Origin: a virus
Length of the DNA stretch: 35,219 nt
Virus record (IMG/VR): IMGVR_UViG_3300043411_001038
Location: 1-35,219 of that record
Reading direction: 5' to 3' (one strand)
In this document: in pieces, positions 2,538 to 23,350 of the stretch
How positions within the stretch are numbered: position 1 is the stretch's first letter
Layout of the letters: each line of letters opens with the position of its first letter
Translations under genes and position numbers: made by a program
The notes under the pieces: model-generated
The model's database searches: none
What the model saw: only the letters and a program-made list of their open reading frames with translations
Told to the model about the DNA's origin: nothing

Positions 2538-5500
2538 CTAGAATGAGATTTCGCAACTATCTGTGGTACAGAACTTGTCTTCGACAAACTCTGCAGCGCC
2601 CGTCCCATACAGCCTGCTGGCATCTATCGGCACAATTTTGTCCATCCAAGTTTTAGCGTCATCTTCGGAGATAGGCTCATACGGGGCTTGAGCGTAGGTT
2701 GTCCCAGAGTCGTCAATTGGAAGGAATGACGCTGATTTGAGTTGCCCTTGGAAAGAACTTAATAGTGGTTTGAGTTGGTCTTTCTCGTCGGGACGGAAAG
2801 ATAGGGTACAGGACACGAGGTTGTCTGACCAGTAACGTTGAGCTAATGCTGCTAGTGACGCTTTCTCCCAGATTGAAACTTCTCGTTCTGATCGGATAGG
2901 AATTCCTTCTGTCGGGAAGGAGACCACGACTGTTGAGTTGGGGTCCATCACGTCTGGTTCTGTGTGGTATCCGGCTTCTCGTAGTATGTCTAGTAGCGGG
3001 TCTAGGTGGTTGAATCTGATGCGTCGAATGTAATAGCCGGATGTGGTTGGCCAGTGAACTCCGGGGGTGACGCCAGATATAAGGGCAGTCGATCCGCTAG
3101 GTTTTACAGTACTCATCTTGATGGATTCGCGAACACCGAGCCATTCAGAATATTTCTTATCGACGGCAGATAGGTAACGATACCCTTCGTTAAACCAGTT
3201 TGCCATTGTCTGCCATCCTCTAGTTTCAACAAACTGTGCAAGACCAGTCATAGATATGCCAACTCGATGATTCCGCATGATTACTTCGTTTGTTTCAGGC
3301 CAAGGAGTCTGCAACATACTCACAGCCTTAGTGTACATGTAGGCGTGTTTAATTGTGTGTTTCAAGTCTTCAACATCGTCATGGTTCGTTGGGTAAATTT
3401 CCCCTAAATTGCATTGCTCAGAACTCTCCAATGCAATTTCTCCGCATTGGAAAGCGTATATCCCATGCAATGATTTATCTTCAACCCGTGTAACAATCCC
3501 AACTGTATGATTATTGTCAACAGTAAGATTATAAACGTCCTCTTTATCTACAACTTCCACCGATACAACCCGGTGATTCACTGCTGACGCACACCGCTTC
3601 AGATGGTTGTACCCATAAAATATATGAGGGTTCTCTGTCTTCCCTTTGGCTTGGAATCGAACCGGGACCCCGGAAGCCTTACACTCGGCCTCCCATTCAA
3701 CTTTCAACGGGTCACGGCCTAGCCTCACCTGCAAATCTAAATATATGTTAATTTGGGCGTTACGCGTGTTTACTGACCGTGCTCTAGAAGCGTCTCTGAT
3801 TCCTTTGATACGGTTTGCTGTTGCTGGGTTAAGGTTTCCAGCGCTATCGTACTTATTATTGGTATACAGAATAGCACAACTACGCCCACAGAAAGCCTGT
3901 TCCCTCTTTCCCCAAGCTACCTCGAAAGTAGAGCCACACTCTTCACAACTTTTAACCACAAACATTGAGTCGCCATACCAGACCGTCGCTAGGTCTGTAT
4001 TGGATTCCTGTTCTAAATAATACCTCTTCAGGTAGGAGCGGCGAGAGTTAGAGAGTTTCTCTCGCACCTCGGGTGCTTTCATAGCTTCGCTAGATCGCCT
4101 ATGAATGTAGGCTTTATATTCTGGGTCGTTAAATCTTTCTCTAGCTTTAGCCCCAATTATGTTTTTGGTTTCCTGCGAGTGGGTTTTCCCAAACATTCCA
4201 TTCTTCTCACCAGTATTATCTATAGCGTGGATTTTAGCATGTTCAGCGAACGTGAGAAGCTGAAGGTTATCGGGAGAATTATTGAGAGAATCATAATCCT
4301 TATGGTGAACCACAACCCCACCATTAATCCACCCATTACTCTCATTCTTTGCGTACATTTCCGTCCACTTATCAGGTTCGAAAAATTCTGAAATGAGACG
4401 ATGTTCAAAAATTCGATCTACCCTACTGTCTACGACATTACAATTGACTCTCCAGTAATTCTTCCCACCCCGCTTAATGGGTTCCTTTCTCTTGGTGAAA
4501 GCCGGAAGTCTATCATTTTTAGATAAGTCTTTAGCTGCTTTAACTGTTCCATCAAGGAGAATGAACTCGTGATCTGGGGTTACCTTCACAGAAGATCTGT
4601 CATTAAAGGTTACTTTGATCAAATCTGAATCTTGGCGAGTTAATCTTGGTCGCCTAGCCCACTGAATAGAGACGGCCCCATTTTTAGGGTCAACCGAATA
4701 GACGGGGATATCGTCCCCAGAGGCAGCCAACTCTGCTATTGGCACATATCCTCGCCCATCAGCAACCGCAATAAGCGTATCCCCCGCAAAGCATGGGTTG
4801 GTTCCGGTAGCGCGATAATCCTTATCGTTTCTTGGGTCGGCTAACCTCCCGTACTGCTGCATAAGATCAACCCACAGAAATCCAGGTTCCCCGTTTATAG
4901 CAATCTGATCAACTAATGCAGATAAATCTTCTCCAGCATTAGTTAGCACAGAGTTGTTACTATAATTCCCCCAACCATCGTTTCCCATCCTTTCAAAGTT
5001 TTCTTCCAATTCCCAATTCTTGATATTTATATAATCGGTATCATCTTGATATCCAAAAGAGATTAAAGCACTTCTGCGGCTGCCGCCTGCCTGTGCTGCT
5101 TTACCTGTAAGGTTAGATATATCCACAATATCTCTAGATGATAACTTTTCTCCTTCCCTATTAGAGAGAAGTTCAGTTACTTTTTCGTGCATCCTTCTTA
5201 GTGGTCCCTCGCCTGATGCTACGCCACCAAAAGATTTTAGAGGCGTCCCTTCAGGTCGAATCTTTGAGTAATCAAACTTTATGGACTTACGATTCTTGAA
5301 AAAGAATGATTCGAGCAGAACGCCAAGCGATTCAGCCCACGCTTCACGGGTGTCTTCAATTACATGGGTTACATAGTTTCCTGTGTCCGGTTGATGAAGT
5401 GTGATATTACCTGCACCTCTAGTGTCTATCCCTACTCCAATTCCATTCATTGACATCTCCATAAGTCTAACGAATGGCATTGTGGCTTCATACTTTGAGC

Positions 5501-5918
5501 CTGTATTAATTTTTTCAGTTCCCAAAAAGGAACAATTGATCAGTCTGGCTCCATTGCCTGACTTGGCAATATATTCGGTTCCCATGTGTTGCATTCCGCG
5601 TCCGGGTGGGGTCCACTTGAAGTTAAACATGCGGTCGAAGGCGTCTTCTGCTGATCGTTGAGCCTTCTGGTCGTTCCAATGGGTTTTGCGGGCCTTAGCG
5701 TGGTCCTTGAGAATCGAGTAGTAGCCTTCGACGCAGCGTCGGCAGACTTCCCACCATTGTTCCTTGGTGCCGTCTTCTTTCTTTCGTGAGTATTTGAGGA
5801 CGAACGTGAGTTCGCTCAGACTGTTTCCTCCACCGATGTTGAACCCCCAAGGGACATCCTTGGTTTTGTATGGTTCGATAAAATCGTTGGATAGTGAAAA
5901 TGAAAGAAAGTCGGACAT
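2538..5918 (-). CDS. nrdJ: Adenosylcobalamin-dependent (class II) ribonucleotide reductase containing an intein
   Basis: A precursor of 1126 residues; removal of residues 376-824 leaves a mature enzyme of about 677, close to the monomeric B12-dependent triphosphate reductases. It makes deoxynucleotides for phage DNA synthesis. Key residues are visible: Cys129 (INCSFLG), the thiyl-radical cysteine in TNP|CGEIALESSEQCNL split by the intein, the glutamate two residues on, the second active-site cysteine (CNL), and the C-terminal swinging-arm pair Cys1117/Cys1122 (CTTDSC). The ATG at 5918 follows GGAGG by 8 bases; an in-frame TTG 15 bases earlier is not needed. A lack of splicing would leave the enzyme inactive. 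Its use implies cobalamin in the host. Confidence 0.93.
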   Translation of the reverse strand: MSDFLSFSLSNDFIEPYKTKDVPWGFNIGGGNSLSELTFVLKYSRKKEDGTKEQWWEVCRRCVEGYYSILKDHAKARKTHWNDQKAQRSAEDAFDRMFNFKWTPPGRGMQHMGTEYIAKSGNGARLINCSFLGTEKINTGSKYEATMPFVRLMEMSMNGIGVGIDTRGAGNITLHQPDTGNYVTHVIEDTREAWAESLGVLLESFFFKNRKSIKFDYSKIRPEGTPLKSFGGVASGEGPLRRMHEKVTELLSNREGEKLSSRDIVDISNLTGKAAQAGGSRRSALISFGYQDDTDYINIKNWELEENFERMGNDGWGNYSNNSVLTNAGEDLSALVDQIAINGEPGFLWVDLMQQYGRLADPRNDKDYRATGTNPCFAGDTLIAVADGRGYVPIAELAASGDDIPVYSVDPKNGAVSIQWARRPRLTRQDSDLIKVTFNDRSSVKVTPDHEFILLDGTVKAAKDLSKNDRLPAFTKRKEPIKRGGKNYWRVNCNVVDSRVDRIFEHRLISEFFEPDKWTEMYAKNESNGWINGGVVVHHKDYDSLNNSPDNLQLLTFAEHAKIHAIDNTGEKNGMFGKTHSQETKNIIGAKARERFNDPEYKAYIHRRSSEAMKAPEVREKLSNSRRSYLKRYYLEQESNTDLATVWYGDSMFVVKSCEECGSTFEVAWGKREQAFCGRSCAILYTNNKYDSAGNLNPATANRIKGIRDASRARSVNTRNAQINIYLDLQVRLGRDPLKVEWEAECKASGVPVRFQAKGKTENPHIFYGYNHLKRCASAVNHRVVSVEVVDKEDVYNLTVDNNHTVGIVTRVEDKSLHGIYAFQCGEIALESSEQCNLGEIYPTNHDDVEDLKHTIKHAYMYTKAVSMLQTPWPETNEVIMRNHRVGISMTGLAQFVETRGWQTMANWFNEGYRYLSAVDKKYSEWLGVRESIKMSTVKPSGSTALISGVTPGVHWPTTSGYYIRRIRFNHLDPLLDILREAGYHTEPDVMDPNSTVVVSFPTEGIPIRSEREVSIWEKASLAALAQRYWSDNLVSCTLSFRPDEKDQLKPLLSSFQGQLKSASFLPIDDSGTTYAQAPYEPISEDDAKTWMDKIVPIDASRLYGTGAAEFVEDKFCTTDSCEISF
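3447..4793 (-). mobile_element. RNR intein with HNH endonuclease and NUMOD-type repeats
   Basis: This 449-residue intein starts at Cys376 (CFAGDTLIAVADGRG, block A), has block B (VTPDHEFILLDG), block F (DVYNLTVDNNHTVGIV), and ends GIYAFQ before a +1 cysteine. The last residue is Gln instead of the usual Asn, and the penultimate is Phe rather than His. The insert between the splicing halves carries an HNH endonuclease (VVHHKDYDSLNNSPDNLQLL, about residues 535-555) followed by a NUMOD3-like DNA-binding stretch (KNGMFGKTHSQETKNIIG). The +1 residue is the catalytic thiyl cysteine of the host enzyme. The boundaries come from restoring the conserved NPCGEI motif. Confidence 0.9.
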
Positions 5919-5946
5919 TGTGTAAGCCTCCAAAATGAACTATGGG

Positions 5947-6034: not shown

Positions 6035-6790
6035 CTAGAGGGATAGCCGGGTTTTCAAAGCCCCCAGAGCAGCAGAACGCATCTGAGACACCCTCGCTTC
6101 AGTCAACCCCAACAACTCGGCAACCTCTGTCAAGGAAAGTTCATAGACGTAGAACAAAGCAAGGATAGAAGAGTCGGATTCATCAAGAGTTCCGATAACC
6201 CTAACAATCCTATCAATCACATGCTCATAATCCAACTCATCAACAGGTGTATTTATATCCTCTATTAATTCTTCTGTTGCTAGAGACGATTCTTCGCCGC
6301 CTACATACGGCCTCTCGTTTATGTCAGAAAAAATTGTAGTAATGTATCTACTTTTTATCCTATCGACAGAACCATCATCCCAGCCCAAAAAGTCGTCAAC
6401 CTCGGAATCTTTAGGCCAAGCCCCTTCCCTCTGAGCCAAAATCTCTATAGCCTTGTCGATATCGCGCCATTTGATCCGCAGAGACCTGGGTGCCCAATCA
6501 GCGGCTCTCAACCCATCAATAATAGCCCCTCTGATACGAAGTGATGCGTAGGTCTCAAACTTATAGCCTACCGAGCGATCGAAGCGTCTGATAGCCTCCA
6601 TCAGTCCGATACTTCCATCTGATACGAGATCGTCTATGTCAACGTGCGCAGGGAGTCCCTTTTTCAGCATTTTGGCAATAGACGCCACGAGCGGATAGTA
6701 CGCCTCGACTAGATCTTGGTATACATGGTCGTTTCCTGAATAGAACTCGTCCCAGAGTTGATCTTTCGTTTTCTGTTTTCTTCTCATCAT
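6035..6790 (-). CDS. RNA polymerase sigma factor, FliA/WhiG-like
   Basis: A complete 251-residue sigma-70 family factor of the FliA/WhiG type. Region 2 is clear (DIDDLVSDGSIGLMEAIRRF, then YASLRIRGAIIDGLR at about 90-104), as is the group signature RAADWAPRSLR. The weakly conserved middle is region 3, and region 4 contains the helix-turn-helix LTEVAELLGLTEARVSQMRS (about 215-235). It should direct host core polymerase to phage promoters. The recurring CGTTAT-N6-TAGG motif ahead of late genes in this window is an obvious candidate target, although it does not resemble the known FliA/WhiG consensus. Two adjacent ATGs (6790 and 6787) are both possible. Confidence 0.9.
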   Translation of the reverse strand: MMRRKQKTKDQLWDEFYSGNDHVYQDLVEAYYPLVASIAKMLKKGLPAHVDIDDLVSDGSIGLMEAIRRFDRSVGYKFETYASLRIRGAIIDGLRAADWAPRSLRIKWRDIDKAIEILAQREGAWPKDSEVDDFLGWDDGSVDRIKSRYITTIFSDINERPYVGGEESSLATEELIEDINTPVDELDYEHVIDRIVRVIGTLDESDSSILALFYVYELSLTEVAELLGLTEARVSQMRSAALGALKTRLSL

Positions 6791-6868
6791 ACGCCTAACT
6801 GATTTATAAGAGATTTAGGCAAAATGATAGTTTATAAATCCAGAACAAATAGACAGAATCTAAGTAAT

Positions 6869-7174
6869 TTAATCTTCGTCCTCGTCGTTGACTATGCAGG
6901 GTTGCAGGATCATTTCATTGTTGTATTCGACGGACACTGGCGGTATCACCATATCTAGGGCGGCTATAGCTTCCTGTAGAAGGGCTTTGGCTGCTAATGG
7001 GGATGTCCCTCCGAGGTTTAGGCGTGGGAATGGTTCGTTGTCCCAATAGGTGAGGGTGATGACGTGAACTCCTAGCGCTTCCTCAAGATCTACCTCTGCT
7101 AGTTCATCTGCATCTAGTTCTTCGTCTAGCTCACTTGGTTCTTCTTCTGGTTCTGAAAATTCGTATTTGCTCAT
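6869..7174 (-). CDS. Acidic protein of unknown function
   Basis: A 101-residue protein starting MSKYEFSEPEEEP. The ATG at 7174 has AAAGGCGG about 7 bases before it. An in-frame ATG at 7258 would add 28 residues but has no ribosome-binding site, so the shorter form is preferred. Residues 6-35 are very acidic (about half Asp/Glu). The rest has strand-like segments (VHVITLTYWDNEPFPRLNLGG) and an amphipathic helix (PLAAKALLQEAIAALDMV), and ends DEDED. No family is recognised. It is the first gene of the minus-strand arm and follows the region carrying a LexA-type palindrome, so damage-linked or repressor-linked control is conceivable. Confidence 0.6.
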   Translation of the reverse strand: MSKYEFSEPEEEPSELDEELDADELAEVDLEEALGVHVITLTYWDNEPFPRLNLGGTSPLAAKALLQEAIAALDMVIPPVSVEYNNEMILQPCIVNDEDED

Positions 7175-7265
7175 AGACAGCACCGCCTTTATATGTTCAA
7201 CGACAAATCTCACCTGATTGGCAAGTTTTTGGGTGAGTGTACCCGTTGATAGAGCCATGGTTGCC

Positions 7266-7375
7266 CGGAACTATCCACTTGAACTGAACAGCGTTCAGAT
7301 TTCGGCGGGAATGTCCATGTCTTCTTTGCCTAGATACCCTCCCGAACGCATGTTCGATCGGGCGGAACTGTCCAC
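7266..7375. repeat. Pair of 13-bp direct repeats flanking the divergent control region
   Basis: CGGAACTATCCAC (7266-7278) and CGGAACTGTCCAC (7363-7375) differ at one base and are 97 bases apart. The second lies just beside the LexA-type palindrome. They resemble paired repressor sites, but no repressor gene that would bind them is identified in the window. Confidence 0.45.
7343..7356. promoter_or_regulatory. LexA-type (SOS) palindrome
   Basis: CGAACGCATGTTCG is a perfect 5-4-5 palindrome matching the Gram-positive/actinobacterial LexA consensus CGAAC-N4-GTTCG, with the preferred A after the right arm. It lies 170 bases upstream of the first minus-strand gene. Binding is inferred from the match alone. 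Confidence 0.6.
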
Positions 7376-7744
7376 GGAAACTGGTTTTTCTAGTCGCAAG
7401 AGAGATTCAAGAGGCCCTCTACCGCGGGAGCGTTTTACCTCTGAGAACGAAATGTGCTGAAAGTCAACGTCTAAAAAACCAACTTTTACCCCGAAAAAAG
7501 CCTCAAAATTGAATTTTCTGAGAAAAAAATTCACTCTCGAAAACCCCGGAAACTAAGGGTTTTCAACCCCTCGCGAGACCTGTTTTTCGTTTTTGTGCAT
7601 GGAAAATGTGAAAACCCCAAAAAACGTGTGCTAAGCTGATCCATACAAACCTGTGAGGGAACGTAAAACCTACCACCCATACAGATTTCCTTTAATCTCT
7701 TCTATAGTCTGCACGTCAGATGTTAAGAGATTTAACCCTTACGA

Positions 7745-18936: not shown

Positions 18937-21348
18937 ATGAGTGGCGTTTTTGAAGATCTTTCTGAAGAGGAATGCTATCTTTATGCTTTGTTTCAGGATT
19001 ATTCTGGTATTGATATAGCCGAGTTTTGTTTGGTTGATGAAGAGTTTGAGGACGGGTTGGTCCGCGCTTTCCCTATGCAGTATGCGTGGTGGAGGAATAA
19101 TGATAAGCACCAGATTGACGCTGGGAGCAGGTCGGCGGGAAAAGCTTTGGATGTAAACACGCCTATATTAACTACTGCTGGATGGAAGGTGATGGGGTCC
19201 GTAGTTGTAGGTGATTTTGTGTTTAATGAGACTGGTAATCCTGTTGAGGTTTTGGAGGTTTTTGATACGCTTTATGACAGGGATTGCTATGAGGTTTCTT
19301 TTAGTGATGGGTTAACTATTGTTGCTGACGGTGAACATTTTTGGAAAACTTGTACGAAGCGAGGTGAGGTTAATAAGGTTGCGACGACTTTAGAGATTAA
19401 AGATACGTTGACTTTATGGGGGGAGGCTAACCACAGGATTCCTGTCGCTATGCCTTTGCAGTATCCTGATAAGGAGTTGCTTGTTGAGCCTTATGGATTG
19501 GGTTATTGGCTGGGTGATGGTTCTTCTCAATCAGGGTATCTTCATATAGGCGAGCATGATGTTGACGCTGTAACGAATTTATGCTCTGAAATTGGACTCA
19601 CTCTACAAAAGCTTGCAGGTGGGGTTTCCGTTTATGCAATCAAGCTTCTAGAGCAGGGGTGGACTGAGTTGCCCGTGTTGGCAGACGAAGGTATTCTCCC
19701 GCCGAGAGGGAGGCTTACTAATGGGCAGGTTAAGGAGTGCAGAAGATTGGCGATGAATGGTGTTAGCTATGATGATTTGGTGGCAATTTATGGGGTATCT
19801 AAAACTTCTATATGTGAGTATGTGCTTGGTCAGCAACGTAGAGAGGCGGGTGGGCCTATCCGCCCTCCAAGAAGAGATCTGTATGCCTCGCATCTAGAGG
19901 AAATTGGGGTGCTTAAAAATAAGCATATCCCCGATCGTTATATGACAGCCTCTTTTAGGCAGAGACTTGCTTTGCTTCAAGGAATTATGGACTCCGATGG
20001 GCATATAAGAAAAAACGGCTCTTGTGAAATATCGTTGAGTAATTTTAGGTTAGCTGAAGACGTTTATAAACTGTTGTTAACATTGGGTCAGAAGCCTGCA
20101 ATAAGAACTAAACAAACTAGATGTAATGGGAATCCGTCTAACCCTACGCGACGGATCACATTTACTCCGATTAACGGGGTTGTCCCATTTAGGTTGCCAA
20201 GGAAGGTTGAAAGAGTTAAACTTTCCGGTTCGCCTAGGGCGGCGAAGAGATCAATTTGGGATGTTAGACAGGTTCCTTCTCGCCCGGTTCGTTGCATTAG
20301 GGTTTCGGGGGATAGTCACCTTTTCTTGGCGGGGGCTAGTCTGATCCCAACACACAATTCCATGTCGATACGTTATCGTGCTGTGGCTTTCCCGTTTATT
20401 CATCCTGGGGCGGAAATGCTTATTACAGCCCCGGAGTCTGTTCACCTTCAGGCGATAACATCGAAGATAGAGAATATTTATTTGAATAATCGTATACCTC
20501 GGGAGATGCTTGCTTCTCGTGGGAATACTCCGCGTATTCAGCAGCGCCCGACTTGGAATATGACGTTTATGAATGGCGGGTCGATTAAGGGTCGTATCCC
20601 TCAGCGTGACGGTAAGGGGGTGAAGGGGATGCACCCTACTTGGCTTGAGGCCGATGAGATGCAAGATTTTCCTGAGGCTGGTTGGGTTGAGTTGAGTTCA
20701 ACCTTGGCGAAGGTTGATGGGGCTGCATGGCGCTGTCATGGCGTCACACGGGGTGTTGGGGGAACTTTCGATAAGTATTGTTCTCCGGGTTCAGGGTGGA
20801 CTGTGCATCGTCTTCCTGCGATGTTGCGGCCAACTTGGGATGATGAGGAGCGTGCTGAGGCGGTTATGAAGTATGGTTCTGAAGAGAATATAGATTTTCG
20901 CAGAAATATTTTGGGACTCCCAGGCGACAGCACAGCGGCCCTGTTCGTTCTCAGCAGGCTCGTGCGTTGTTTTTTCGAAAAAACGCCCGTCTGGACAGTT
21001 AATGACGATGGGGTCCTTGATCAAGTGTGTATTTCCGACGTTAATGTAGGGGATAGTGTGTTGAATGGGTCGAAGTCTGGAACGGGTGTTGTTTTGGGTA
21101 AGATTCCGTCGGAGCATTCAAGTATTCTTGAATTAGTTGTTGATGGCGAGAAGCTTTATGTTACTGACGAGCACCCGTTTTTTACTACTCGCGGATGGGT
21201 GATGGCCGGGGAGATTGAGTCTGGCGATGAGATCCTTTCGCTGGATGATGTTGAGGGGTTATGGAGCGAGGATGGGCCTGGCCTTAATCTTGATCTTTTC
21301 CACCTCTTGCAGAGCGAGTCATACCTTGGGGTGGTTGATTATGAGTAG
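18937..21348 (+). CDS. terL: Terminase large subunit, N-terminal gene (ATPase part) with one complete intein and an N-terminal split-intein half
   Basis: An 803-residue precursor. Extein 1 is residues 1-69, ending in the Walker A GSRSAGK. Intein 1 is 70-474. Extein 2 is 475-677 (SMSIRYRAVAFPF, Walker B TWLEADE near residue 567, coupling motif CHGVT). An intein N-half fills 678-803. The gene stops (TAG at 21346) inside the second intein. The protein is the ATP-driven motor that packages DNA into the procapsid. The extein parts of the two terminase genes add to about 547 residues, the usual terminase size, so splicing in trans with the product of the next gene is expected. Confidence 0.93.
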   Translation: MSGVFEDLSEEECYLYALFQDYSGIDIAEFCLVDEEFEDGLVRAFPMQYAWWRNNDKHQIDAGSRSAGKALDVNTPILTTAGWKVMGSVVVGDFVFNETGNPVEVLEVFDTLYDRDCYEVSFSDGLTIVADGEHFWKTCTKRGEVNKVATTLEIKDTLTLWGEANHRIPVAMPLQYPDKELLVEPYGLGYWLGDGSSQSGYLHIGEHDVDAVTNLCSEIGLTLQKLAGGVSVYAIKLLEQGWTELPVLADEGILPPRGRLTNGQVKECRRLAMNGVSYDDLVAIYGVSKTSICEYVLGQQRREAGGPIRPPRRDLYASHLEEIGVLKNKHIPDRYMTASFRQRLALLQGIMDSDGHIRKNGSCEISLSNFRLAEDVYKLLLTLGQKPAIRTKQTRCNGNPSNPTRRITFTPINGVVPFRLPRKVERVKLSGSPRAAKRSIWDVRQVPSRPVRCIRVSGDSHLFLAGASLIPTHNSMSIRYRAVAFPFIHPGAEMLITAPESVHLQAITSKIENIYLNNRIPREMLASRGNTPRIQQRPTWNMTFMNGGSIKGRIPQRDGKGVKGMHPTWLEADEMQDFPEAGWVELSSTLAKVDGAAWRCHGVTRGVGGTFDKYCSPGSGWTVHRLPAMLRPTWDDEERAEAVMKYGSEENIDFRRNILGLPGDSTAALFVLSRLVRCFFEKTPVWTVNDDGVLDQVCISDVNVGDSVLNGSKSGTGVVLGKIPSEHSSILELVVDGEKLYVTDEHPFFTTRGWVMAGEIESGDEILSLDDVEGLWSEDGPGLNLDLFHLLQSESYLGVVDYE
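19144..20358 (+). mobile_element. Class 3 intein in the terminase Walker A motif (LAGLIDADG type)
   Basis: A 405-residue intein between GSRSAGK and S of the Walker A motif. It starts ALDVNTPILTTAGWK with Ala, not Cys or Ser, and ends SLIPTHN before Ser. The Trp-Cys-Thr triplet that defines class 3 inteins is present: Trp136 in block B (GEHFWKT), Cys453 in block F (VRCIRVSGDSHLFLAG) and Thr472 in block G. A LAGLIDADG homing endonuclease sits between the splicing blocks (LGYWLGDGSSQS, about residues 187-198, and LLQGIMDSDGHI, about 346-357). Confidence 0.92.
20968..21345 (+). mobile_element. Split intein, N-terminal half (126 residues)
   Basis: Begins at Cys678 (CFFEKTPVWTVNDDG, block A), with block B as LYVTDEHPFFTTRGWVMAGE, then a strand ESGDEILSLDD, and ends with an acidic leucine-rich tail LNLDLFHLLQSESYLGVV at the stop codon. 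No C-terminal block follows in this frame. The matching half opens the next gene. The break lies where endonuclease domains normally insert, the usual split site of natural split inteins. Confidence 0.85.
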
Positions 21349-21493
21349 AGTAGATAGTGTTAAGATTCTCAAATCAGGAGATCCTGGATTCGATAGACTT
21401 AGTAATGGAAAAGATACAGTCAGTTGTTATGACCTAACTGTTTCTGGGCACCCATCATTTTTTGTTGGCGATGGAGCTTTCTTGGCGCATAAT
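21341..21493 (+). mobile_element. Split intein, C-terminal half (51 residues)
   Basis: Runs from MSRVDSVKIL through block F (VSCYDLTVSGHPSFFVGDG) and block G (AFLAHN) to a +1 Cys (CVDQDSSND). It carries its own ATG and ribosome-binding site. Its size is at the upper end for split-intein C-halves. It complements the N-half encoded at 20968-21345; both splice junctions restore a continuous terminase sequence (LVR|CVDQ). Confidence 0.87.
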
Positions 21494-23350
21494 TGCGTGG
21501 ATCAGGATTCGTCGAATGATTATAATGATGGGATCTATCAGTTGTTGAAAATTGATGATGCTATGGTTGAGGATGCTGGAGATCCTTTGTATCTGATTGA
21601 CCCTCCTGGTTCTCATGCTGCGTTTGATAAAACGTGGATAGGGATGGACGTGGGTTGGTGTGTTGATGTTGAGACAGAGATTTTAACTAAGCGTGGTTGG
21701 CTTAGGTATGATGAGCTTTTGGTTGGGGACGAGTCGTTGTCGATTGATCCTGAGACGGGTTTGAGTGATTGGCAGAGGGTTACTGATATTTATTCTGATA
21801 CAGGCCTATATACTATGACTCATATAAAGGGGCAGACTTTTGATGCGTTAACGACTCGGCATCATAGGTGGTTGACGAAGCATACTTCTGGCAAGTGGAG
21901 GTGGAAGACCACCGAGACTTTAAATACTAATGATCGCATCCCTTATTCTGTGAAGCGCAACTCTGTAACTGATGATCCTATATATGAAGATGATTTGGTT
22001 AAATTGGTAGCATGGATATTTTGCGAGGGAAGCTTCAAGGGAAGTGGGTTTGAATTTTCTCAGTCTCATATAGTTAATTTCAATAATGTTCAGGATATAA
22101 AGTCATTGTTAACTAGACTTTTGGGGCATCCTGGCAAAGTTAGTCATGGTGGGTTGTGGAATTATTGTGAGCGTTTTGATGGGGATGATAATTACTCTTC
22201 TAGATATGGTGGAGCGATGACTTATTTCTGGGTTATGAAGGAAGCTACTGAAATTCTTGGACTTCGTGATATATTTCTGGGTAAAGAAAAGGGGATTGAT
22301 CCAAAATTCATCTCTTGTTTGTCACAGGCGCAGTTGGAAGATTTCATAGAGGTGTGCAATAAAGCAGATGGGTGGACGAATGAGAGTGGGACTAGGTGTT
22401 TTGAACAGTATTCTGAGGTACGTTCATCATCTTATCAGATGATTTGTGCCTTGGCCGGGTATCCAATCTCTACTTCTTATAGTGATACTCGTGGGGGGCG
22501 GTGGCATACGGCAATTCTTAAATGCTCTACCGTTTCTCCGGTTAGGGCGGCTGGGTTTCCGAGGGTAAGCGATCAGGCCATGACAATTGCTACGGATCGC
22601 AAGTTGCGTACGATTTGGTGTCCGACGATGGCTAATCACCAGAATTGGTTGGCTAGAAGGAACGGTTCTGTCTATTTCACGGGGAATACGACCAGTCCTA
22701 GCGCTATAACTGTTTTTGCTGAGGAGAAGAACCCGGATAAGTCTAAGGATTCTGTTCTCAGGTTGATTTCGAGGATTTTGTTGACTCGTGTTTCTGGTCC
22801 TGATCAGGTGAGGATTGTTGCTCATCTGATTGATCTTTATAGGCCGAAGGCGTTCGCTATGGACTCTACTGGTGCCGGTCAGCCGCTTGTCCAGTTTCTT
22901 CAGGAGGCTGTTCGTGACGATCCTTCTCTTTCCCATATTCTTGATAGGATAAAGGGGTACAATTTTAGTTCTAATATTGTTGTTGATATTGATGAAACTA
23001 AGGAAATGGATCAGATTGAGGCGATGAAGGCGGACCCGTCTCTTAAGGAGATGGAGATTAGAAGGAATGTGAAGGAGTATTCTAGTGACGTGTTGCGGGA
23101 GTTGGTTGATCAGGGGCGTCTGATTCTCCCTTGGGATAAGGATTTGATTGGCGAGTTTCAGGGGGAGACTTGGGGTTATTCTAAGAAGATTATTGATCAT
23201 TATGGTCGTCGGAAGATTTATTCGGGGACTGGGGTTCATAGTTTGGATGCTGCTAGGTTAGGTGCGTTGGCGTATAAGCAACAGTTTATTGACGAAATTT
23301 TGGATAATCATAAGAATCAGTGGGAACCTTCCCCGCTCATTTTCCTCTAA
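21341..23350 (+). CDS. terL: Terminase large subunit, C-terminal gene (nuclease part) with C-terminal split-intein half and a third intein
   Basis: A 669-residue precursor from the ATG at 21341, which overlaps the stop of the first terminase gene (ATGAGTAG) and has GGGGTGG 6 bases before it. Residues 1-51 are the intein C-half, 52-106 extein, 107-449 intein 3, 450-669 extein. The exteins form the end of the ATPase domain (CVDQDSSNDYNDGIYQ) and the RNase H-like nuclease: GMDVGW|TTSPSA (first Asp), KAFAMDSTGAGQPLVQ (second Asp) and HSLDAARLGALAY (third Asp). It cuts concatemeric DNA. It must be joined to the upstream product to give one terminase. Confidence 0.93.
   Translation: MSRVDSVKILKSGDPGFDRLSNGKDTVSCYDLTVSGHPSFFVGDGAFLAHNCVDQDSSNDYNDGIYQLLKIDDAMVEDAGDPLYLIDPPGSHAAFDKTWIGMDVGWCVDVETEILTKRGWLRYDELLVGDESLSIDPETGLSDWQRVTDIYSDTGLYTMTHIKGQTFDALTTRHHRWLTKHTSGKWRWKTTETLNTNDRIPYSVKRNSVTDDPIYEDDLVKLVAWIFCEGSFKGSGFEFSQSHIVNFNNVQDIKSLLTRLLGHPGKVSHGGLWNYCERFDGDDNYSSRYGGAMTYFWVMKEATEILGLRDIFLGKEKGIDPKFISCLSQAQLEDFIEVCNKADGWTNESGTRCFEQYSEVRSSSYQMICALAGYPISTSYSDTRGGRWHTAILKCSTVSPVRAAGFPRVSDQAMTIATDRKLRTIWCPTMANHQNWLARRNGSVYFTGNTTSPSAITVFAEEKNPDKSKDSVLRLISRILLTRVSGPDQVRIVAHLIDLYRPKAFAMDSTGAGQPLVQFLQEAVRDDPSLSHILDRIKGYNFSSNIVVDIDETKEMDQIEAMKADPSLKEMEIRRNVKEYSSDVLRELVDQGRLILPWDKDLIGEFQGETWGYSKKIIDHYGRRKIYSGTGVHSLDAARLGALAYKQQFIDEILDNHKNQWEPSPLIFL
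21659..22687 (+). mobile_element. Third terminase intein, at the nuclease active site
   Basis: A 343-residue intein from Cys107 (CVDVETEILTKRGWLRYDEL, block A) to Asn449 (GSVYFTGN) before Thr. Block B is FDALTTRHHRWLTKH. The penultimate residue is Gly, not His. A degenerate LAGLIDADG endonuclease fills the centre (KLVAWIFCEGSF, about 219-230, and FIEVCNKADGWTNESG, about 335-350). Block F has the unusual form LRTIWCPTMANHQNWLARRN. Removal restores GMDVGWTTSPS. Confidence 0.88.

Follow-up and report, generated by a model that had tools for sequence, protein, structure and literature searches.

A phage terminase encoded by two overlapping genes with three inteins, one of them split and probably derived from an intein with an overprinted endonuclease

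How might a phage obtain one packaging motor from a terminase gene that is broken in two and is also interrupted by complete inteins? The question is raised by IMG/VR virus record IMGVR_UViG_3300043411_001038, a linear record of 35,219 bases and a single metagenomic contig, which in its full length is referred to here as the window. In it, the terminase large subunit (TerL) is divided between two overlapping genes that together carry three inteins, which we call I1, I2, and I3 in their order along the protein, and the break between the genes lies inside I2. We consider it very probable that the two genes are translationally coupled, that I1 and I3 excise in cis and the halves of I2 splice in trans, and that the ancestor of I2 was an intein carrying its homing endonuclease in another reading frame.

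Gene 1 (positions 18937..21348, plus strand) is an open reading frame (ORF) of 803 residues encoding the N-terminal part of TerL, the complete intein I1, and the N-terminal half of I2. Gene 2 (21341..23350, plus strand; 669 residues from an ATG start) encodes the C-terminal half of I2, the middle and C-terminal parts of TerL, and the complete intein I3. Their frames differ by +1, and they share a start/stop overlap of 8 nucleotides, ATGAGTAG (21341..21348, plus strand); such an overlap is a usual form of translational coupling. The sequence GGGGTGG stands just 5′ of the gene 2 ATG as part of an extended Shine–Dalgarno sequence, GGGGTGGTT (21328..21336, plus strand), whose duplex with the 16S tail has an energy of −12.3 kcal/mol. 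This ranks it in the top 1.7% (as strong as or stronger than 98% of 286 background ATGs) and among the strongest in the region. A preliminary description, made from the letters of the sequence, had already divided TerL between two overlapping genes, the first ending in an intein N-half and the second opening with the C-half behind its own ATG and GGGGTGG. Both ORFs and all coordinates agree with ours, the recomputed junctions fall at the same positions, and the duplex energy shows the Shine–Dalgarno sequence to be a strong one.

Intein junctions were placed by script on the window sequence. Removal of all three inteins leaves exteins of 69, 203, 55, and 220 residues, which add up to a protein of 547. 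All are on the plus strand: extein 1 (18937..19143) ends with the GSRSAGK of the Walker A motif, extein 2 (20359..20967) follows, extein 3 (21494..21658) ends in GMDVGW, and extein 4 (22688..23350) holds the nuclease domain and the stop codon. A first attempt at an extein scan with the window protein alone gave no match. The joined extein aligned with the TerL of Caudovirales GX15bay over 97% of its length (41.8% identity, E-value 2e-134), and all three joints were free of gaps. They were also gap-free against seven virus-contig TerLs that have no intein at all and against the part of the TerL of locus L007 that follows its own intein, a set that is 46-56% identical to the joined extein. Since the joined extein runs without gaps across its joints when aligned with intein-free TerLs, we regard the boundaries as exact and not as a product of chance. 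With the inteins removed, the ATPase and nuclease motifs are intact and the protein is homologous to annotated TerL; the normal terminase of about 547 residues that had been foreseen, with its motifs restored, is what the alignments recover.

Two of the three insertion sites are catalytic. I1 interrupts the Walker A motif (SAGK/S, the slash marking the insertion point) and I3 the GMDxG nuclease motif (GMDVGW/T), where the two complete inteins had been located before. I2 lies in a conserved but non-catalytic stretch, FVLxRLxx/C, ahead of the nuclease domain, and among the relatives aligned here the +1 residue at this point is Cys in five and Asn in four. The earlier generalization that each site is an active-site motif is therefore true for I1 and I3 and has to be given up for I2.

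The I2 N-half (20968..21345, plus strand) comprises 126 residues with Cys1 and the sequence TDEH, and the C-half (21341..21493, plus strand) comprises 51 residues that end in HN before Cys+1. In the intein-profile search that the preliminary description had proposed, the C-half passed the cut-off of NCBIfam TIGR01443 (intein C-terminal splicing region), and the N-half resembled Hint and bacterial intein-like (BIL) domains. All of the splicing residues are present (Cys1, TxxH, block F, and HN/C), with the halves on separate genes. By its residues and gene layout, I2 would be classed as a naturally split class 1 intein. It is divided at the canonical position (126 + 51 residues), its N-half not being the short one of 16-30 residues found in the atypical TerL split. 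For modelling, the halves were joined through the overlap, with GATT read as one step. A model from the single sequence had a predicted local distance difference test score (pLDDT) of 33, and a usable model was obtained only with a four-row alignment of the window and three relatives, its rows taken from the window and the fetched loci. The resulting model had a pLDDT of 77 and a predicted template modelling score (pTM) of 0.68, with only the junction residues 96-122 disordered, and its structural matches were the BIL domain 2lwy (6e-8), class 3 DnaB inteins, the split gp41-1, VidaL, and Npu DnaE. Joined in this way, the halves are predicted to adopt a single Hint fold.

Relatives at the same site bear directly on whether the split is real. 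At locus L038, a distant relative, the first TerL gene ends at 6639, the ATG of the second is at 7540, and an endonuclease ORF (6422-7645) lies between the intein halves and overlaps both. This is a clear case of the fractured-gene layout, and the comparison with it is the strongest support for a genuine split in the window. At loci L036 and L044, an I2-type intein at the same site is contained in one open TerL ORF (913 and 1361 codons, respectively), and it encloses, in the +1 frame, an ORF for a zinc-finger DUF559 (Vsr-like) endonuclease. The same overprinted arrangement is found at locus L046 in a different, tail-like gene. The endonucleases of L036 and L038 are 44% identical, and both terminate at a TGA within the block F codons for YDLT; because of the position of this stop codon, the last 35 endonuclease codons of L038 are double-coded with the C-half.

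No free-standing endonuclease ORF was found between the halves in the window, only a truncated endonuclease tail, read in the +1 frame relative to the C-half. This fossil of a Vsr-like endonuclease, VLRFSNQEILDSIDLVMEKIQSVVMT followed by a stop codon (21357..21437, plus strand), is truncated on its upstream side by a TAG. Read through the C-half, the +1 frame gives a stop, VE, a second stop, and then IVLRFSNQEILDSIDLVMEKIQSVVMT and a further stop, which aligns with QGWTVLRFSNMEVMNSTSSVVEKIMSYVTT and its stop in L038. The alignment scored 74 against a null of 34.5 ± 9.7, in which the C-half protein was held fixed and its codons were drawn at random, and none of the 2000 trials reached 74. When the window was searched with endonuclease proteins, the same stretch was the best match (E-value 4e-4), and the null test gave no endonuclease signal in the +2 frame of the C-half. 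Since the tail persists in the +1 frame and is the best endonuclease match, we regard the window as a derivative that has lost its endonuclease. All of the relatives have both I2 halves in a common frame, and those of the window are one base apart, so the deletion, or an indel linked to it, was out of frame.

Taken as a whole, the locus would work as follows. Gene 1 would be translated into extein 1, I1, extein 2, and the I2 N-half, and gene 2, coupled to it and starting from its own Shine–Dalgarno sequence 8 nucleotides before the end of gene 1, into the I2 C-half, extein 3, I3, and extein 4. I1, by the class 3 mechanism, and I3 would excise in cis. The halves of I2 would associate, fold as one Hint domain, and splice in trans using Cys1, Cys+1, and Asn cyclization; with the three events in any order, the product would be a single motor of 547 residues, a normal TerL. 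As for its history, the ancestor of I2 would have been an intein with a Vsr-like (DUF559) zinc-finger homing endonuclease in its +1 frame, the tail of which overlapped the C-half. The intein frame would then have broken, giving a fractured gene, and deletion of the endonuclease would have left the tail fossil and an obligatory split, although the two losses may have been one event. The expression of the genes, the splicing in cis and in trans, and the order of these events are what we infer from the layout, residues, and relatives described above. The preliminary proposal of one terminase, two genes, and three inteins that requires trans-splicing is likewise the reading we prefer, given the intact I2 residues, the single predicted Hint fold, and the split at the same place in L038. 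Three points had escaped that description, namely that I1 belongs to class 3, that the endonuclease of the intein ancestral to I2 was encoded out of frame, and that there are precedents for split inteins in TerL and for split genes holding several inteins.

Several points count against this account. The window comes from one contig, and IMG/VR yielded no further copy of its junction, nor did phage records yield any relative at the DNA level; the I2 N-half carries no endonuclease signal (score 25, null 30.7); identity between I2 and its closest relatives is no more than ~40-60%; and trans-splicing of I2 is something that we infer. Since no second copy of the junction was found for comparison, a one-base sequencing or assembly error, behind which the real gene would be one ORF with a contiguous, endonuclease-less mini-intein, keeps a small share of the probability. 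A single base separates the two frames, and L036 and L044 show that contiguous forms do occur at the I2 site. We nevertheless think such an error unlikely, as the in-frame ATG with a Shine–Dalgarno sequence in the top 1.7%, placed at the break, would then be an accident, and L038 and four other loci are truly fractured in the same place, with many stop codons between the halves and an ATG shortly before the C-half. It is very unlikely that the gene is decaying, so that the halves do not splice and the window is a phage or prophage remnant without a working terminase: the intein frame is indeed broken and the endonuclease lost, but the exteins and all splicing residues are intact, the terminase aligns over its whole length, and there is no other damage in the gene. 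Finally, a programmed +1 ribosomal frameshift at the overlap, yielding one polypeptide from which I2 would splice in cis, would suit the +1 offset and the overlap of 8 nucleotides but is scarcely to be expected, since GAT TAT GAG TAG contains no recognized slippery motif and a dedicated start codon with a strong Shine–Dalgarno sequence makes frameshifting unnecessary.

The ancestry proposed for I2, from an intein with an overprinted endonuclease, can be set against a much wider sample. Two scans of IMG/VR with endonuclease alignments, combined with profiles of both intein halves, gave 149 loci, 115 of them distinct (endonuclease cores below 95% identity); an open intein frame was not a criterion in their choice. 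The endonuclease is in the +1 frame relative to both intein halves in all 115. The intein frame runs without a stop codon between the halves in 109 of them, with 0 stops in the spacers against 898 expected when synonymous codons of the endonuclease were shuffled, and openness is individually significant (P < 0.01) in 99 loci. The third frame is not depleted (1501 stops seen, 1404 expected). In the five fractured loci, the numbers of stops in the intein frame are close to expectation (seen/expected: 31/32.6, 15/17.8, 25/24.4, 26/30.5, and 35/34.3); each of the five has an ATG just before the C-half. At locus L231, where 16 stops would be expected in the intein frame, there is only 1, which points either to a fracture of recent date or to an error in the sequence. 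When loci were compared in pairs, conservation was higher in the endonuclease frame than in the intein-linker frame in all 16 pairs.

Most of the insertions are at helicase motif II (DE/CHH), and in this helicase group the last codons of the N-half, for Asp-Glu-Val, supply a GAGG a few nucleotides before the endonuclease ATG. Searching phage records for similar endonucleases led to six cultured phages (L065-L070): Pseudomonas MR14, Vibrio K391, Vibrio 1.194.O, Corynebacterium phi673, Vibrio CP-T1, and Vibrio 159E43-1b. Each carries an unannotated DUF559 endonuclease in the +1 frame of an intein, inside a single annotated coding sequence (CDS) that is open throughout; five of the six CDSs are annotated as helicase and one is unnamed. 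In Salmonella phage S16 (L072), uvsW is broken in two, each part carrying one half of an intein, and between them lies an endonuclease-like ORF of another type that overlaps both. It seems likely to us that these loci belong to a large family of phage inteins, so far without a description, that encode a Vsr-like (DUF559) endonuclease in the +1 frame; in this family selection keeps the intein frame open and the endonuclease tail is double-coded with the C-half, and that loss of the frame gives a fractured gene and deletion of the endonuclease a plain split intein, as a general route of origin. In the literature searched, with the 2009 paper of Dassa et al. lying outside that search, we found no account of an overprinted endonuclease in true inteins.

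Of the complete inteins, I1 (19144..20358, plus strand; 405 residues) is a class 3 intein with a LAGLIDADG endonuclease domain. It matched the solved class 3 DnaB inteins PDB 6bs8 and 6rix (E-value 1e-22) and LAGLIDADG_3 (E-value 4e-7), and it has no nucleophile at position 1, as the definition of class 3 requires along with a Trp, Cys, and Thr signature. The aligned signature, shared with both DnaB inteins, consists of Ala1, Trp (in EHFW), Cys (in RCI), and Thr (in PTHN); the intein ends THN/S, with Ser+1. It differs from the DnaB inteins in its location in the Walker A motif of TerL and in its LAGLIDADG domain. L038 carries an I1 at the same site, 43% identical. I3 (21659..22687, plus strand; 343 residues) has Cys1, a GN end, and Thr+1, is unclassified, and matched no solved structure by sequence. 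Mini-forms of ~155 residues occupy the same site in L039, L040, and L041. Inteins of the I3 type (window, L002, L012, L033, L038, L039-L041, and L056) keep Cys1, yet by eye the class 3 positions are also occupied by Trp, Cys, and Thr, and the terminal pair is GN where HN is usual; such inteins may stand between classes 1 and 3.

This TerL family is a hotspot for inteins, with about ten insertion sites across the loci examined. The sites are GSR/S, GK/S, KG/THP, DEA/S, WR/C, MR/C, GW/T, LDK/T, EY/S, and FH/T (in L007, L011, L012, L032, L033, L039, L041, L044, L056, and the window). Intein-bearing members mostly hold one or two, and the three of the window are the most among these loci. A fourth intein in the window, with HNH_3 and NUMOD3 motifs, lies in an ORF of 1131 codons for a B12-type ribonucleotide reductase (2538-5933, minus strand). 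In GX15bay (L002), the genes for PhoH and the portal protein contain relatives of I1 and I3, so this phage group has related inteins in more than one gene.

Dassa et al. (2009, NAR 37:2560; cited in PMC7090010 and PMC13014065) reportedly described fractured genes in which split inteins occur with Vsr-like endonucleases. Like the window, fractured genes are broken inside an intein, have the halves on separate genes, and are of phage origin; unlike them, the window has no endonuclease gene, only the tail fossil in the +1 frame of the C-half. AceL NrdHF is a fractured case of class 3 (PMC7891396). Naturally split TerL inteins are represented by AceL-TerL and GOS-TerL, which, together with the also atypically split VidaL (structure 6vgv), are split after ~16-30 residues (PMC13014065). 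All three are naturally split cysteine inteins of metagenomic origin, like I2, and the first two are also in terminase large subunits; in contrast, I2 is split at the canonical endonuclease position, and its gene contains two complete inteins as well. As described by Liu and Yang (2003, cited in PMC5874633), dnaE of Trichodesmium erythraeum is a split gene with a split intein and further complete inteins; there, as in the window, one protein comes from such an arrangement, but the protein is a bacterial polymerase and not a phage packaging motor with overlapping genes. As split TerL inteins and multi-intein split genes are both known, the arrangement in the window is a variant and not a new kind. 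The preliminary description was right that split inteins in phage genes are known. The nearest precedent for the overprinting is the ‘ShiLan domain’, an out-of-frame HNH endonuclease in an insertion in a phage methylase (PMC11855218). There too a homing endonuclease occupies another frame of an insertion that is open in the host frame, but that insertion is not an intein, because it has no splicing domains, whereas the loci studied here have true intein halves flanking a DUF559 endonuclease that is always in the +1 frame.

As a new split intein of the canonical-site type, I2 has a possible use in protein ligation. Overprinting hides homing endonucleases from gene finders, and the overlap might help a homing endonuclease to resist loss, because changes in its tail are constrained by the C-half that the same bases encode. 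In one gene family, the I2 site shows three states that bear on how split inteins arise: overprinted and contiguous (L036 and L044), fractured with the endonuclease (L038), and bare split with a fossil (the window). Together, these states at one site provide a testable path to split inteins.
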